A program made the translations under genes and the position numbers. The notes below the pieces were generated by a model, which was given only the letters and a program-made list of their open reading frames with translations, was not told the origin of the DNA and searched no databases. A DNA stretch of 64,000 nucleotides, taken from Lactobacillus johnsonii (lineage in GTDB: Bacteria > Bacillota > Bacilli > Lactobacillales > Lactobacillaceae). Shown here piece by piece: positions 8,236-25,653 of this stretch. How positions within the stretch are numbered: position 1 is the first letter of the stretch; each line of letters starts with the position of its first letter. The DNA lies in the NCBI RefSeq assembly GCF_014058685.1, contig NZ_CP059055.1, positions 1,302,001 through 1,366,000 of the forward strand. Direction: 5' to 3'.

Positions 8236-9507
8236 TTAAATAAATGATTTAATAATTCTAGCTTTCGTACTTCCATGACCATTCTCTTCCTCTACCGCAT
8301 AACGAATAGCATCAATGCAGTGGTTATATGCATCGATCGGCCTATTAGTATATTCATCAGTCTTCTTATCTTTCACATATGTGTAATTCTGCAATTCTTC
8401 AATTGTCTTTACACAACGATCATCAACCACCCATTTAAATTGTTGAAGGAATTGAATACCTTGAATTATTGAATCGGGACCTTTTAGAGCCGGTCTAATA
8501 CGATAAATACCGTCTCTTTTCATTTCAGCAATTGATTTCTTTTCAGCACTATCAGCTGTTATTACTTCTTTTGAATAGCCCATGTCCTTAATTACTTGTG
8601 CTAACTGATTATTAAGCAAGCCCTTTTTAACAAATTCATCCATCACATAAAGTGTTTTATTTCTCATATCTAGTTTGATATGCATAAATGCACTTGGATC
8701 ATTGATAAACCCATAATCAAGCCCAAAATAATCATTTAACGCTAATAATTTAGGATCACGAGGATTTAATCGTTTGGTTTTAAAGTAAGGAAAAACAAGC
8801 TTATCAAGCGTCGCAAATTCACCTAATGTGTATATTTTGTAATAAGCAGGATTAGTATTTTTCAACTCTTCAATCGTTCTGATATTGTCTTCATCTAAAA
8901 ATCTATTATCTTTGTAAGTTGATTGATGGATAGCTACTCTTGACCGATCATAATCTGCACTAGGATCAAACCAAGTCTGATATGTCCAATTAAGCTTGCT
9001 AACTGGATTAAACATACAGAAGATTTGTCTCTGTTTATGCTTAGGTTCACGTAAACGCAAAGTAAGTTGAGTGTAGTCATTATGATTAAACTCACTTGCT
9101 TCTTCCATAACCACATCTGACAGTCCCTTAATAGATTTAATCTTTTCTGGGTCATCCATACCTTGAAATAAAAAAATCGCCCCATTTGGAAGGACGATTG
9201 TTTTATCAGATCTATTTACATGACAGTATTGAAGGATATTCCATTCACTTAAACATTCAGTGACATCAGTAAAAATTGAATTTTTAACTGTTCTATCAAC
9301 CTTACGTAACCAAAGCACTTTTCTTGGAACATTCCAATGCTGTAATGATTTCAATACAACTTTTTGTACTACTCCATGACTTTTGCCACTAGAAGCTCCA
9401 CCATACCAAACCTCTGTAAATTTAGAATAATCAAATAAATTATCGTATATTTGCTGATTAAATACTTTTGAGGGATGCGGAAAATTCAAATTAATCCTAA
9501 CCATCAT
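8236..9507 (-). CDS. phage terminase large subunit
   Basis: ATP-driven DNA packaging motor and nuclease. Walker A is seen as GGASSGKSHG, Walker B as DVVMEEASEF, and the C-terminal nuclease fold has FGLDYGF and VITADSAE. About 423 residues, normal for the family. The start is ATG 9507 or 9504, after AGGTGATT. It overlaps the end of terS, a coupled arrangement. It appears full length. Confidence 0.93.
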   Translation of the reverse strand: MMVRINLNFPHPSKVFNQQIYDNLFDYSKFTEVWYGGASSGKSHGVVQKVVLKSLQHWNVPRKVLWLRKVDRTVKNSIFTDVTECLSEWNILQYCHVNRSDKTIVLPNGAIFLFQGMDDPEKIKSIKGLSDVVMEEASEFNHNDYTQLTLRLREPKHKQRQIFCMFNPVSKLNWTYQTWFDPSADYDRSRVAIHQSTYKDNRFLDEDNIRTIEELKNTNPAYYKIYTLGEFATLDKLVFPYFKTKRLNPRDPKLLALNDYFGLDYGFINDPSAFMHIKLDMRNKTLYVMDEFVKKGLLNNQLAQVIKDMGYSKEVITADSAEKKSIAEMKRDGIYRIRPALKGPDSIIQGIQFLQQFKWVVDDRCVKTIEELQNYTYVKDKKTDEYTNRPIDAYNHCIDAIRYAVEEENGHGSTKARIIKSFI

Positions 9508-9952
9508 AATCACCTGGATCAATGTTTACTGTAATATCAGTTTGAGTTTCAACTTTATCAGTAAAGATCTTATAGTATTTACCAAGTAGTTCCAGGGCCT
9601 TTAACTGGTCTTGATCTTCAGGAGTTACTGTAGTTACATTGTCATAAACAACCTTGGGCTTTTTGCCCTTATAATCTATTCGCTTAAAAACTTTTTCTCT
9701 TGGTTCCCCAATAGCTAGACGGCTCAAATTATCAAGAACACCATCAATATCGAGAATATCTTTTGCCTTAGTTTCATTCATCACATCACTTAAATAGTTT
9801 TGAATGTTGGTATTTGTTAGTAGTTTTGAAGCATTTGTTCTGGCCGTAATATCTTTTTTAGCACTATAAGCAACTTTATAGGCTCTTGTAGCATTAAAGT
9901 CTTTCAAATATTCCTGACAAAATTTCTTTTGTTTTGGTGTAAGTTCTTTCAA
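9497..9952 (-). CDS. phage terminase small subunit
   Basis: DNA-recognition subunit of the packaging terminase, 151 residues. The N-terminal helix-turn-helix region LTPKQKKFCQEYLKDFNATRA is typical of the Terminase_2 family, followed by an oligomerisation region. Start is TTG 9952 after AGGAGGTGAG. A terminator-like hairpin lies immediately upstream at 9965-10004, so late transcription must read through it, or a promoter lies close by. Confidence 0.9.
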   Translation of the reverse strand: MKELTPKQKKFCQEYLKDFNATRAYKVAYSAKKDITARTNASKLLTNTNIQNYLSDVMNETKAKDILDIDGVLDNLSRLAIGEPREKVFKRIDYKGKKPKVVYDNVTTVTPEDQDQLKALELLGKYYKIFTDKVETQTDITVNIDPGDYDG

Positions 9953-9964
9953 ATTCTCACCTCC

Positions 9965-10004
9965 TAAAATAAAAGAGACTAGTTAATTTTACTTAACTAA
10001 TCTC
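9965..10004 (-). terminator. terminator-like hairpin just upstream of terS
   Basis: Inverted repeat GAGATTAGTTAA / TTAACTAGTCTC (one mismatch), followed on the minus strand by TTTTATTTT. It separates the small membrane protein genes from terS and nearly touches the terS ribosome site. It could therefore modulate packaging gene expression. Confidence 0.7.
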
Positions 10005-10185: not shown

Positions 10186-10214
10186 AAAATAAAAAGCCAG
10201 CTTACGCTGACCTT
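10186..10214 (-). terminator. terminator after the 34-residue membrane peptide gene
   Basis: AGGTCAGC / GCTGGCTT stem with a GTAA loop, followed on the minus strand by TTTTTATTTT. It lies at the stop codon of the 34-residue ORF and before the 47-residue ORF. Confidence 0.75.
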
Positions 10215-10317
10215 ATTTCATTATTTTTTTAACTATCCAAATCACTAATATACAACTAATAATTATTATCAATACATATTTCAAATATATCCACAAATTA
10301 AAATGCAAAAAAAACAT
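10213..10317 (-). CDS. 34-residue membrane peptide coupled to the upstream gene
   Basis: ATG 10317 overlaps the stop of the preceding gene as TAATG, a coupled start. The product is a single hydrophobic span (residues about 12-28) with a basic end IVKKIMK. No family recognised. Such tail-end peptides can partner with the preceding protein, here also membrane anchored; this is inference. Confidence 0.5.
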   Translation of the reverse strand: MFFLHFNLWIYLKYVLIIIISCILVIWIVKKIMK

Positions 10318-10865
10318 TACTTCATTAACTCTTTTTTGATGCTTTCATACCCTCTTTCATATTCACTAGCATAACTATCATAGTCTTTTATGCTTATTTT
10401 TAATAAAGTAAGAGGGCTGATATAGTAGCCTGAAAAATCTTCTTTTAAACTTGATACAATATATGCAATATATACCATCATTTTATATGGATCAAATTGT
10501 TTTGATTTATTAAGTGCAAAAGTAGCTGAATTATAGGCGGATATCAATTTTACAGTTCGATCTGATCCATATATTATCGTATCATGCATAAGCTTCTTAT
10601 AAATTTTTAATGCATCTGGATTTTCACTACTAATCTTAGCAATAGTACCATCCATATCTGTTAAAAAATCTGTCCAACTAGCTAGTACTTCTTGTTGTTG
10701 TTTACCTCCGAGTTGCTTAAAATATGATTCGATTTGAATATCATGTGCATTTTTATTTTTTATAGTTTCAAGCCATTTTTGTGTAATTAAATCTGGTAGC
10801 TTTAATACTATTCCAATTAATACAATCATTACTACTGTTGAAACTATACTAATTATTTCTAACAT
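10317..10865 (-). CDS. membrane-anchored phage protein of unknown function
   Basis: About 182 residues. One N-terminal membrane span (LEIISIVSTVVMIVLIGIVL) is followed by a soluble, mostly helical domain of about 150 residues with no domain I recognise. ATG 10865 lies 11 bases after GAGG; a GTG at 10871 is also possible. It lies between the tRNA cluster terminator and terS, a position where temperate phages often carry accessory genes. A host-defence or superinfection role is possible, but nothing in the sequence proves it. Confidence 0.6.
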   Translation of the reverse strand: MLEIISIVSTVVMIVLIGIVLKLPDLITQKWLETIKNKNAHDIQIESYFKQLGGKQQQEVLASWTDFLTDMDGTIAKISSENPDALKIYKKLMHDTIIYGSDRTVKLISAYNSATFALNKSKQFDPYKMMVYIAYIVSSLKEDFSGYYISPLTLLKISIKDYDSYASEYERGYESIKKELMK

Positions 10866-10891
10866 AAACACAATCACCTCAAAACTATTAT

Positions 10892-10929: not shown

Positions 10930-10965
10930 GAGATGATTGAATTTTTTAGCTGGAATATCCAGCAA

Positions 10966-11047
10966 TGGCAAAGATAGGACTTGCACCTATGAAACCTTTC
11001 GGTGGCGGATTTACAGTCCGCTGTCGTTGCTACTGGACCACTTTGCC
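10966..11047 (-). tRNA. tRNA-Tyr (GTA), phage-borne
   Basis: Cloverleaf of 82 nt. The acceptor GGCAAAG pairs with CTTTGCC and the discriminator is A. The anticodon stem GCGGA / TCCGC has loop CTGTAAA, and there is an extra variable arm as expected for class II Tyr. The T arm is ATAGG / CCTAT with loop TGCAAGT, where the usual TTC is TGC. CCA is not encoded. A hairpin (GCTGGA / TCCAGC) lies just 3' at 10949-10963. Confidence 0.85.
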
Positions 11048-11185
11048 AAACTATGCTCTTTTTATTAAGGACATCCTTATAAGGGATGCATGTCCGCACA
11101 GCGAACACAGAGCAATAGCCTCAAGTGTTAAATACATAATATAGAGGAATTTCTTAATGCGGTGAATTAATTCAATTAGTTCCCA

Positions 11186-11257
11186 TAGCCCGTACAAGAA
11201 TTGAACTTGTAACTCCACCGTGAAAGGGTGGCGTCTTAGCCATTTGACCAACGAGCT
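11186..11257 (-). tRNA. tRNA-Glu (TTC), phage-borne
   Basis: Cloverleaf of 72 nt. The acceptor AGCTCGT pairs with ACGGGCT through one T·G wobble. The anticodon stem CCACC / GGTGG has loop CTTTCAC, and the T arm ACAAG / CTTGT has loop TTCAATT. CCA is not encoded. Confidence 0.88.
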
Positions 11258-11448
11258 GTACTAGGAAAGCTGCTATACTTAAGCCTCGCTTTTACGATTG
11301 CCACGGCATCTCAGTATTAGATTTAATGCGGAGTTACGTATCTTTGACCGACTTACCGCTAACCATTAAAACAATCAACCTTAAGCACAAAAATGTTGTT
11401 TCAAGAATTAGATTAACTTTACTTAAAGAAGGAAAATAAAGCTAATCT

Positions 11449-11523
11449 ATAGGACTAGCTGGGCTCGAACCAACACTACACAGGATCAAAACCTGATGCC
11501 TTACCAATTTGGCTATAGTCCTA
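11449..11523 (-). tRNA. tRNA-Gln (TTG), phage-borne
   Basis: The acceptor TAGGACT pairs perfectly with AGTCCTA. The anticodon loop is TTTTGAT. The D arm AGCCAAATTGGTAAGGC and a GTTCGAG T loop match Gln tRNAs. The first acceptor pair is T-A and CCA is not encoded. A perfect 7-bp hairpin (GCTCTGT / ACAGAGC) lies just 5' at 11528-11546. Confidence 0.82.
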
Positions 11524-12184: not shown

Positions 12185-12215
12185 GTCGAAAGATCCTACC
12201 ACCTAATCTTTCGAC
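12185..12215 (-). other. perfect 10-bp inverted repeat at the start of the late region
   Basis: GTCGAAAGAT and ATCTTTCGAC flank an 11-base loop, shortly downstream (minus strand) of the phased TGCGT repeats. No T run follows. It could be an RNA structure in the late leader, an antitermination site or a DNA-binding palindrome. Confidence 0.5.
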
Positions 12216-12238
12216 AATAACAATTTAACACGATTTGC

Positions 12239-12276
12239 ACGCAAGCAGAACGCAAGGTTTACGCATACTTTACGCA
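12239..12276 (-). promoter_or_regulatory. four TGCGT repeats at exact 11-bp spacing (putative late operator)
   Basis: On the minus strand TGCGT occurs four times, with copies at 12272, 12261, 12250 and 12239 (plus-strand ACGCA). Every step is 11 bp, one helical turn, so all copies face one side of the DNA. The array starts about 20 bp after the ArpU-type gene stop and precedes the tRNA and packaging genes. Binding by the ArpU-type protein to drive late transcription is the natural inference. Confidence 0.65.
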
Positions 12277-12295: not shown

Positions 12296-12799
12296 TTACC
12301 AAACAGTCTTAATTCTTTCAGTAAAAACTCTTAAATCAGGTAAGCCTTCAACATCAAAATACTTCTTCCAGTAAAGCCAACGGTCAGCAAATTCGCATTG
12401 TGCGTTAATTTTCTTATTGTCGATTGACCGAGTAGATAAATTAACAGTCGCTGCTACATCAACAATTCTTAATTGATCTATATACGTGCCAATTAAGATG
12501 CGTCTGTAAGGTTTAAATGCTGTATCGGTGCAATTATCCATTGTTTTATAGATAGCTGCACACACCTTTCTAGCAGGATCAGCAATATCAATATCGTCCT
12601 GTGCTTCATCAATGAAGTTGTTTTCAACGCCGTTCTCATTTGTTGACCCTGGTGCAAAAGATAATTGAGGGCTTGTAAGTTGATTACGGTGCAAGCCAGC
12701 CAAGTTAAGATATCTCTGAAACTCAGTAGTCAGAAATTTATCCACCTTCCTAGCTGTAGCTCTTGGATTTGGCTGTAATCCCAAATTAATTTGATACAC
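12296..12799 (-). CDS. ArpU-family phage late transcription regulator
   Basis: A 167-residue ArpU/RinA-like protein. This family regulates late phage transcription and resembles sigma region 4. The C-terminal part has a helix-turn-helix (YIDQLRIVDVAATVNLSTRSI). GTG 12799 follows GGGAG. It is the last gene of the early operon and lies directly before the phased repeat array and the tRNA-terminase region, the standard place for a late activator. Confidence 0.82.
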   Translation of the reverse strand: MYQINLGLQPNPRATARKVDKFLTTEFQRYLNLAGLHRNQLTSPQLSFAPGSTNENGVENNFIDEAQDDIDIADPARKVCAAIYKTMDNCTDTAFKPYRRILIGTYIDQLRIVDVAATVNLSTRSIDNKKINAQCEFADRWLYWKKYFDVEGLPDLRVFTERIKTVW

Positions 12800-14248: not shown

Positions 14249-14710
14249 CTAATCCCCCATATCTCTCTTAATTCTCACTTCAACCCTAGGACGGTCTGCA
14301 TATCTCTTTACAACAAGCAATTTAGTAACCTGTCTGTCATCTTTGTATACGCCACGTATAACTTCGACCATCTTTTTAAGCTGCCTGTTTAGCTTTTTCT
14401 TAGGGTTCATACCGTCCATGATAATCTTGCCGATATTATCCGCATCAGGCATCTTGATAGGCAATTCTTTGTTAGCAAGGCACAATGCCTTACGTTTTTT
14501 ACTCCAACTCTTAGGGACGGAAAAATATGCCACTATTTTGACATCTACAGGCTCGTCATTATCAAAGTACCCGTCAAAACTATTAATTGCCGTATACCTG
14601 ACTAAATCTTCATACTGAGATGTCTTCTTTGGCGTATATGCTACTGTTCTAGTAACCCTAGGTCTAGCCTTACCTACTGGCGGTCCTTCAATCGTAAACT
14701 CTACTTTCAC
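14249..14710 (-). CDS. RusA-family Holliday junction resolvase
   Basis: Endonuclease resolving four-way junctions in phage recombination and replication. Expected features are the GPPVGKARPRVTR start, PDADNIGKIIMDGMN and VYKDDRQVT, which hold the acidic metal ligands. Between the last two motifs lies a basic insert of about 18 residues (PKKKLNRQLKKMVEVIRG) where most family members have only a few. Length is 153 residues. Its ATG overlaps the stop of the 99-residue gene upstream. Confidence 0.85.
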   Translation of the reverse strand: MKVEFTIEGPPVGKARPRVTRTVAYTPKKTSQYEDLVRYTAINSFDGYFDNDEPVDVKIVAYFSVPKSWSKKRKALCLANKELPIKMPDADNIGKIIMDGMNPKKKLNRQLKKMVEVIRGVYKDDRQVTKLLVVKRYADRPRVEVRIKRDMGD

Positions 14711-25289: not shown

Positions 25290-25653
25290 TGGAGATGAGG
25301 GGAATTGAACCCCTGTCCAAACGTATTTCGTCGTTAACATCTACGATCATAGTTATATTACTTAAAATTCGCTTTGATAAAACGCCATATAACAGGGCTA
25401 AACTATCAAAACTAACCTAAGAATCTTATTTCTAACTATTAAGGTAAGTAGTTAAACGTAGCTCGTTAAATGGTAAGACCCGTAGATAGACACGAGCAAT
25501 CCATCTTTGGATCACGCAGGCTGACTAAGCAGCTACTGCGTAAGAATTTTCGTTATTTGCAGTTATAATTTAACTGTGACGTTTTTAACGTAGACGTGAC
25601 CTACGAATCGCAGTCAACGCGAATCTACGCCTGTCGAATCCCAAAACATCCCC
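25290..25653 (-). ncRNA. ssrA: transfer-messenger RNA (tmRNA)
   Basis: 364-nt ribosome rescue RNA. The 5' GGGGATG pairs with 3' CATCTCC, then discriminator A, and the T arm GGGG...CCCC has loop TTCAATT. The tag frame at 25525-25560 encodes ANNENSYAVAA then TAG. The partner SmpB is encoded at 54807-55262. The prophage integrase targets its 3' end, as many phages do, and the tmRNA sequence remains complete. Confidence 0.95.

Follow-up and report, generated by a model that had tools for sequence, protein, structure and literature searches.

Four TGCGT boxes in 11-bp steps as the probable operator of an ArpU-like late regulator in a Lactobacillus johnsonii prophage

In temperate phages of lactic acid bacteria, late regulators set the timing of the packaging and lysis genes, as has been established for Alt, Ltr and RinA. 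According to PMC13123087, the sites of Ltr regulators generally comprise four imperfect repeats, the cited target of Alt from phage TP901-1 consists of four imperfect direct repeats from -76 to -32, Ltr of phage phi13 depends on a repeat region upstream of its late promoter, and both Alt and Ltr are described as promoter activators. For ArpU, the available parts of the literature searched on this name contained no binding site. Here we describe an array of four TGCGT boxes beside an ArpU-like gene in a prophage of Lactobacillus johnsonii. It lies in a stretch of 64,000 nucleotides (NCBI RefSeq assembly GCF_014058685.1, contig NZ_CP059055.1, positions 1,302,001 to 1,366,000 of the forward strand), which is called the window below and to which the coordinates refer. 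Judged from sequence comparison, the array is very probably the operator of the prophage late promoter, bound by the adjacent ArpU-like protein. The original prediction knew of no described target site with such a layout, a statement that did not hold, given the four-repeat Ltr sites and the Alt repeats just mentioned. We located the repeats of TP901-1: their boxes stand at -72, -61, -50 and -39, in 11-bp steps and in the same register as those of the window, and are followed by TATACT-TG-TATTAT.

The array and the gene of its presumed regulator are arranged as follows, box positions being relative to the predicted transcription start and the register being taken from relatives:

12239 to 12276, minus strand: array of four TGCGT boxes at 11-bp steps
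12239 to 12243, minus strand: box at -28 to -24
12250 to 12254, minus strand: box at -39 to -35
12261 to 12265, minus strand: box at -50 to -46
12272 to 12276, minus strand: box at -61 to -57
12296 to 12799, minus strand: ArpU-like late transcriptional activator, 167 amino acids, phrog_248 (profile match), predicted helix-turn-helix 112-119/123-147 (AlphaFold2 model)

On the plus strand the boxes appear as ACGCA at 12239, 12250, 12261 and 12272, so that the four identical pentamers in exact 11-bp steps of the original prediction were confirmed, as was their place about 20 bp past the stop codon of the late regulator (19 bp by our count). The minus strand reads TGCGTaaagta TGCGTaaacct TGCGTtctgct TGCGTgcaaat cg TG t TAAATT gt TATTGT cgaaag. 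Since boxes and ArpU-like gene share one strand, the array is directed toward the side of the tRNA and terminase genes. The window thereby carries what characterizes target promoters of the late transcriptional regulators of Gram-positive phages (Ltr as a functional class), namely about four direct repeats. With up to three mismatches, the four-box pattern matched only this array and its one-step shift in the window, and nothing in 100 shuffles; with up to two mismatches, the same two places were the only ones in the 1.95-Mb genome. The backward-pattern control of the genome scan was uninformative because TGCGT is identical when read backwards. Any 5-mer occurring four times at a fixed step of 6-30 bp was found in three cases in the 64 kb, the other two being TTTTT and TTTAA, while 60 dinucleotide shuffles contained on average 0.03 fourfold arrays and none with at least three G/C in the 5-mer. 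The shuffles, the fixed-step scan and the genome scan together rule out a chance origin of the array.

Downstream of the boxes we predict the following promoter elements from a position weight matrix and from folding:

12222 to 12227, minus strand: predicted extended -10 (hexamer TAAATT with TG in front), with no -35 consensus
12214 to 12219, minus strand: second, conserved hexamer TATTGT (-4 to +2), its first base 8 bp downstream of that of the -10
12185 to 12215, minus strand: 5'-terminal hairpin (11-bp stem) of the late transcript, which is predicted to start with G at 12215

A late promoter had been expected at 12200-12240, and this is about right for the predicted elements (-10 at 12222-12227, start at 12215). 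A sigma-70 scan listed no promoter at this place, with a total of 10 for the region vs 13.7 in shuffles. TAAATT, and TATACT in TP901-1, were chosen as -10 because the TP901-1 repeats then fit the cited -76 to -32. If TATTGT were taken as the true -10, the boxes would move by 8 bp and the TP901-1 repeats would lie at about -80 to -43, which led us to reject it. In phi13, a hand count shows that the cited TATA box (-15 to -5) and repeat end (-42) also agree with a TATAAT and 6 nt after it. TATTGT is at least as conserved as the -10, with TA in 39 of the 40 held-out loci above threshold; when loci were anchored upstream only, TA occurred at -4/-3 in 96 of 176 vs 15 of 159 shuffled ones. The 5'-terminal hairpin of the window is only modestly stable compared with shuffles (z -1.59, with 19 of 200 shuffles folding equally well). 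Among 92 loci, 32% have a 6-bp stem that begins at +1, with varying sequence and loop length, vs 5% with shuffled tails, and this recurrence in relatives supports the placed transcription start and suggests that the 5' stem may protect the late transcript. Stems of this length starting anywhere from -1 to +2 were counted in 42 of the 92 loci, a combined count without shuffle control.

The phasing was followed into relatives by scoring the self-match at lags 5-30 around the stop codon of the regulator. Loci with a region shorter than 240 bases, or sharing more than 35% of their 8-mers with a kept locus, were dropped (182 to 124 in the initial set, 271 to 204 overall). From the genome searches loci were taken for a part of the matches, mostly the better-scoring ones, and tblastn matched 19 phage records, of which 12 were used, the other seven being second accessions of the same phages. 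One locus with a truncated gene (L023) was left out, another (L060) was kept out of alignment A2 owing to a stop codon in the stretch, and TP901-1 (L183) and phi13 (L184) stand outside the phrog_248 statistics. Of the 124 dereplicated loci, 58 scored best at lag 11 and 15 at lag 22, compared with 14 of 122 in a control stretch and a mean of 10.8 of 124 in shuffles; the mean lag-11 score was 9.6 vs 4.6 and 4.0, respectively. An order-wide search added 76 dereplicated loci, in 36 of which lag 11 or 22 was best (control, 4 of 76). Overall, this applied to 109 of 204 loci of homologues and to 18 of 202 controls. The check proposed with the original prediction thus came out in its favour: phased boxes recur at about half of the phrog_248/ArpU-like genes in Lactobacillales, with a shared register to the -10 and covariation of box and recognition helix. 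In close relatives (Lj771, JNU_P11, jlb1, KC5a and the IMG/VR loci L014-L022) the boxes are still four and read TGCGT or TGCGC, apart from a deviating copy here and there, and Lj965, whose regulator is 62% identical, has TAYGT boxes at 11-bp steps. Phages of L. helveticus carry CAACG boxes at steps of about 10.5 bp, so that the boxes farther upstream no longer keep the register (L008). Two of them (L047, L051) have arrays of at least eight CAACG-like boxes, in which lag 21 reflects alternating 10- and 11-bp steps.

The boxes hold a fixed position with respect to the promoter element. The weight matrix found TATWWT-RG-TATTGT downstream of the array above the 95% level of shuffled regions in 92 of the 124 loci (in sample), its -12 position lying at a median of +52 from the regulator stop. 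When loci were anchored on this element, lag-11 identity reached 0.64-0.74 at -50 to -46 and -39 to -35, 0.42-0.57 at -61 to -57 and 0.35-0.68 at -28 to -24, with 0.20-0.27 at control lags. As the matrix had been seeded with TATTGT, it was tested on loci outside its build set: 40 of 80 held-out loci exceeded the null level, where four were expected, and in these 40 the boxes showed an identity of 0.67 at lag 11, compared with 0.20-0.32 at lags 7-10 and 12-15 and 0.44 in the spacers.

The sequence of the boxes differs between lineages, with 47 consensus boxes among 61 loci, so that one register is common to 47 different cores. Mutual information shows the box covarying with the adjacent regulator's predicted recognition helix in the set that remained after removal of loci lacking a clear promoter or array (204 to 131 to 89) and then of those at least 60% identical (to 69). 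Regulators with S or T at residue 124 tend to have G at the third position of the box and those with R128 to have G at the second; where residue 123 is E or K, the base right after the box tends to be G or C. Similarity of boxes and of proteins was also correlated in a Mantel test (r 0.18, p 0.0005), which is weak evidence, since linked DNA diverges together anyway.

The regulator matches the phrog_248 profile (transcriptional activators) over residues 1-162 with E 1.5e-32 and belongs to this group as a whole protein. Against TIGR01637 (ArpU) it scores 37.1 bits, under the curated cut-off of 43.1, and therefore we call it ArpU-like; among its homologues, phiadh (156.4), Lj928 (83.5) and CR191 (51.1) pass this cut-off and Lj965 (36.5) fails. 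A protein search with the regulator gave 20 proteins, each at least 55% identical, and a PDB sequence search gave three matches only, at E 0.041 or worse. The AlphaFold2 model, built from 49 sequences, has a mean predicted local distance difference test score (pLDDT) of 79.4, with residues 44-63 unreliable and helix-turn-helix helices at 112-119 and 123-147. In a Foldseek search of this model against the PDB there was no match at E<=0.001, and the leading matches, all at E>=0.18, were sigma region 4 domains, including region 4 of SigmaE on -35 DNA. In the model, the helix-turn-helix thus appears most like sigma region 4.

Computation thus provides the array, arrays in relatives that keep a common register to the -10, the covariation of box and helix and a helix-turn-helix whose leading structural matches are sigma region 4 domains; from these we infer binding and activation, with a single subunit on each box and in contact with RNA polymerase, and the transcript itself. 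The ArpU-like protein would dock one helix-turn-helix on each TGCGT box, placing its copies on nearly one face of the DNA (11 vs about 10.5 bp per turn) from -61 to -24, where they would cover the place of the missing -35 element. The regulator may then recruit sigma-A RNA polymerase to the extended -10 (TAAATT), and transcription would start at about 12215 and proceed leftward, first across the leader with its tRNAs and then into terS and the packaging genes, the transcript beginning with the 11-bp hairpin.

Several observations weigh against this reading. A different lag was best in 95 of the 204 loci, 73 of the 204 had no clear promoter, and the step is not always 11 bp, as lag 21 was best in the L. 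helveticus phages L047 and L051. Within the Alt family, lag 11 was best in only three of nine dereplicated loci, and Ltr of phi13 uses 18-bp repeats. The conservation of TATTGT is partly built in, the seed of the weight matrix having contained it, and the spacers of the arrays are themselves partly above background (0.26-0.58 in sample, 0.44 held out). Finally, the mutual information comprises 1463 tests with phylogeny not fully corrected, and K21 and I107, outside the helix, score high as well.

Other functions of the boxes were weighed against the same evidence. Silencing of the late genes by a repressor or host regulator bound to the boxes is conceivable, as phased boxes can be used by any regulator, and we consider it very unlikely: the box changes with the recognition helix of the adjacent regulator, PMC13123087 describes the regulators found at the same place, Alt and Ltr, as activators, and a promoter without -35 consensus suits activation. 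Direct repeats on the terminase side of the early region, with terS as the next conserved module, might also suggest a DNA-packaging site (pac/cos) or an iteron for a terminase or replication protein. This appears highly improbable. The array keeps close to the stop of the ArpU-like gene (the -12 at a median of +52), while in 11 phages the distance from the stop or start to terS is 521-2991 bp; moreover, the boxes stand in register with a -10-like element, and their sequence varies together with the ArpU helix. That the repeats merely arose by tandem slippage or from composition, such as phased A-tracts, finds some support in arrays that are long and A/T-rich with repeated spacers (L190, L175). 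It would nevertheless be a most improbable origin, given that the repeat concerns mainly the 5-bp core (0.67 vs 0.44 for spacers in held-out loci, up to 0.74 vs 0.26-0.58 in sample), that the array is unique in 1.95 Mb and that 47 different cores share one register. Packaging site, slippage and phased A-tracts were accordingly rejected on register, covariation, core-over-spacer repetition and uniqueness.

The region between the predicted late promoter and the terminase genes contains the following features:

11449 to 11523, minus strand: tRNA-Gln in the late leader (tRNA calls)
11440 to 11460, minus strand: intrinsic-terminator-like hairpin with an 8-bp stem, overlapping the 3' end of tRNA-Gln (terminator scan)
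11186 to 11257, minus strand: tRNA-Glu in the late leader (tRNA calls)
10965 to 11048, minus strand: tRNA-Tyr in the late leader (tRNA calls)
10317 to 10877, minus strand: protein of phrog_8187, between late promoter and terS (profile match)
10193 to 10214, minus strand: intrinsic-terminator-like hairpin with a 9-bp stem (terminator scan)
9975 to 10004, minus strand: intrinsic-terminator-like hairpin with a 12-bp stem, ending 22 nt before terS (terminator scan)
9497 to 9952, minus strand: terS, terminase small subunit (Terminase_2; domain and phrog profiles)
8236 to 9522, minus strand: terL, terminase large subunit (profile searches)

These hairpins bear on a further reading, in which the ArpU-like protein would be a processive antiterminator resembling Q, AlpA or GafZ, loaded onto RNA polymerase by the array, besides or instead of promoting initiation; this seems rather unlikely. 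In its favour, the +20 to +700 region of the late promoter holds 50 sense-strand terminator-like hairpins in 44 of 129 loci vs 15 antisense ones in 14 of 129. A hairpin ends 22-31 nt before terS in six of 11 phages (that of the window and ten named ones), and none does so antisense; since this gap leaves little room for a promoter, the late polymerase would have to cross the hairpin. The scan found none near terS in AB1, phiadh, JNU_P11 and jlb1, and phi13 has a terminator-like hairpin shortly after the start of terS. We further collected 136 terS loci (L276-L411), chosen by terS and not by regulator from the best 80 of 101 and the best 80 of 152 matches, and dropped seven with less than 400 bp upstream and 46 near-duplicates. 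A hairpin ended 22-60 nt before terS in 41 of the remaining 83 and none was antisense, with ten matches elsewhere in the 400 bp upstream; distances are counted from the start of the match, which can lie a few codons away from the start codon. Activation combined with antitermination has been shown for GafY/GafZ (PMC11150451). On the other side, Alt and Ltr have been published as promoter activators (PMC13123087), 42 of the 83 terS loci lack such a hairpin, and the terS loci are not tied to ArpU-type regulators. The 41 hairpins are not independent either: they represent 12 sequence types, of which one alone accounts for 16 loci and two together for 26. They may be terminators of the early operon or of morons and leaky to the late polymerase, and the sole link to Q is PF06530 in two of 49 family members (best E 0.043). 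Leakiness would be the dull account of the hairpins before terS, and antitermination by the regulator the novel one.

It is accordingly a doubtful, if testable, proposal that ArpU-type regulators are Q-like, docking on the array, activating the promoter and riding RNA polymerase through the leader and the terminators before terS. If this were so, the packaging genes would be expressed only by polymerases started at the late promoter, and TATTGT (-4 to +2) and the 5'-terminal hairpin could act as loading or pausing elements. The hairpin before terS raises a testable question on antitermination in Gram-positive phages.

The order of the prophage modules is ordinary: RusA, small open reading frames, ArpU-like regulator, array, three tRNAs, the phrog_8187 gene, terS and terL. 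The RusA gene lies at 14249-14710, upstream of the regulator, and the predicted -10 starts 69 bp past the regulator stop. Rfam gave four matches on the leader beyond the three tRNAs, all under their gathering scores. In seven other loci (L040, L041, L043, L055, L057, L058 and L063), tRNA-like 3' halves of T-arm and acceptor, with no recognised 5' half, occur within about 150 nt of the late start; these stretches were not called tRNA by ARAGORN in the first six or by Rfam in any. The late leader of TP901-1 (L183, 3135-3376) has two tRNA genes by ARAGORN (Lys, Ala), as in several Lactobacillus prophage leaders. In L020 and L031, array and start are followed by the 3' end of a tRNA and by a terminator, which may mark an attachment-site junction or a chimeric contig. 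A tmRNA gene at 25290-25653 of the window, minus strand, lies beyond the early region of the prophage and is a possible integration site.

One of the closest known systems is Alt of Lactococcus phage TP901-1 with its late promoter. There too the regulator gene lies directly upstream, the box positions -61, -50 and -39 are common to both, the tandem TATACT-TG-TATTAT resembles TAAATT-GT-TATTGT of the window, and tRNA genes and a terminator-like hairpin precede terS. In contrast to the window, Alt belongs to phrog_2198, and its boxes are imperfect, of different sequence and without a similar box at -28. No homology was detected between Alt and the ArpU-like profile (hhalign probability 0.5%, a weak test with a single Alt sequence), and the window protein matches phrog_248 only. 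In the Ltr / P23 system of Staphylococcus phage phi13, the late regulator likewise is encoded upstream of its own promoter and needs a repeat region for activation (PMC13123087), but it belongs to phrog_1058 and has 18-bp repeats. These repeats have a 9-bp sub-period (L184, upstream of 16027). A comparison with this single sequence detected no homology to the window protein.

The ArpU family (TIGR01637/phrog_248; phiadh, Lj928 and L. helveticus phages) offers homologous proteins in the same place with phased boxes; differences are the score of the window protein under the TIGR01637 cut-off, the lineage-specific box sequence and the steps of about 10.5 bp in L. helveticus. Sigma region 4 (2h27, SigmaE on -35 DNA) may resemble the C-terminal half of the regulator in its helix-turn-helix fold (Foldseek probability 0.99, template modelling score by target 0.71), and PF08281 matches five of 49 family members (best E 2.4e-5). 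Yet the Foldseek E-value is 0.36, PF08281 is absent from the matches of the window protein itself, this protein has an extra N-terminal helical part, and its presumed targets are repeated, variable 5-bp boxes. GafY/GafZ of the Caulobacter gene transfer agent, lambda Q and AlpA are likewise late regulators at a packaging-cluster promoter with terminators to cross (PMC11150451); they are likened here by description, antitermination by ArpU being hypothetical. With about fifty natural box types, each beside a regulator of its own, the code by which a sigma-region-4-like helix recognises DNA can be tested directly, and the common register on a recognisable -10 makes operators of ArpU-like regulators findable by sequence. 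Since the four-repeat sites of Ltr regulators and the Alt repeats of TP901-1 are described (PMC13123087), the layout of the array is known in kind, and what is new here is the register shared across loci, the diversity of the boxes and their covariation with the helix.
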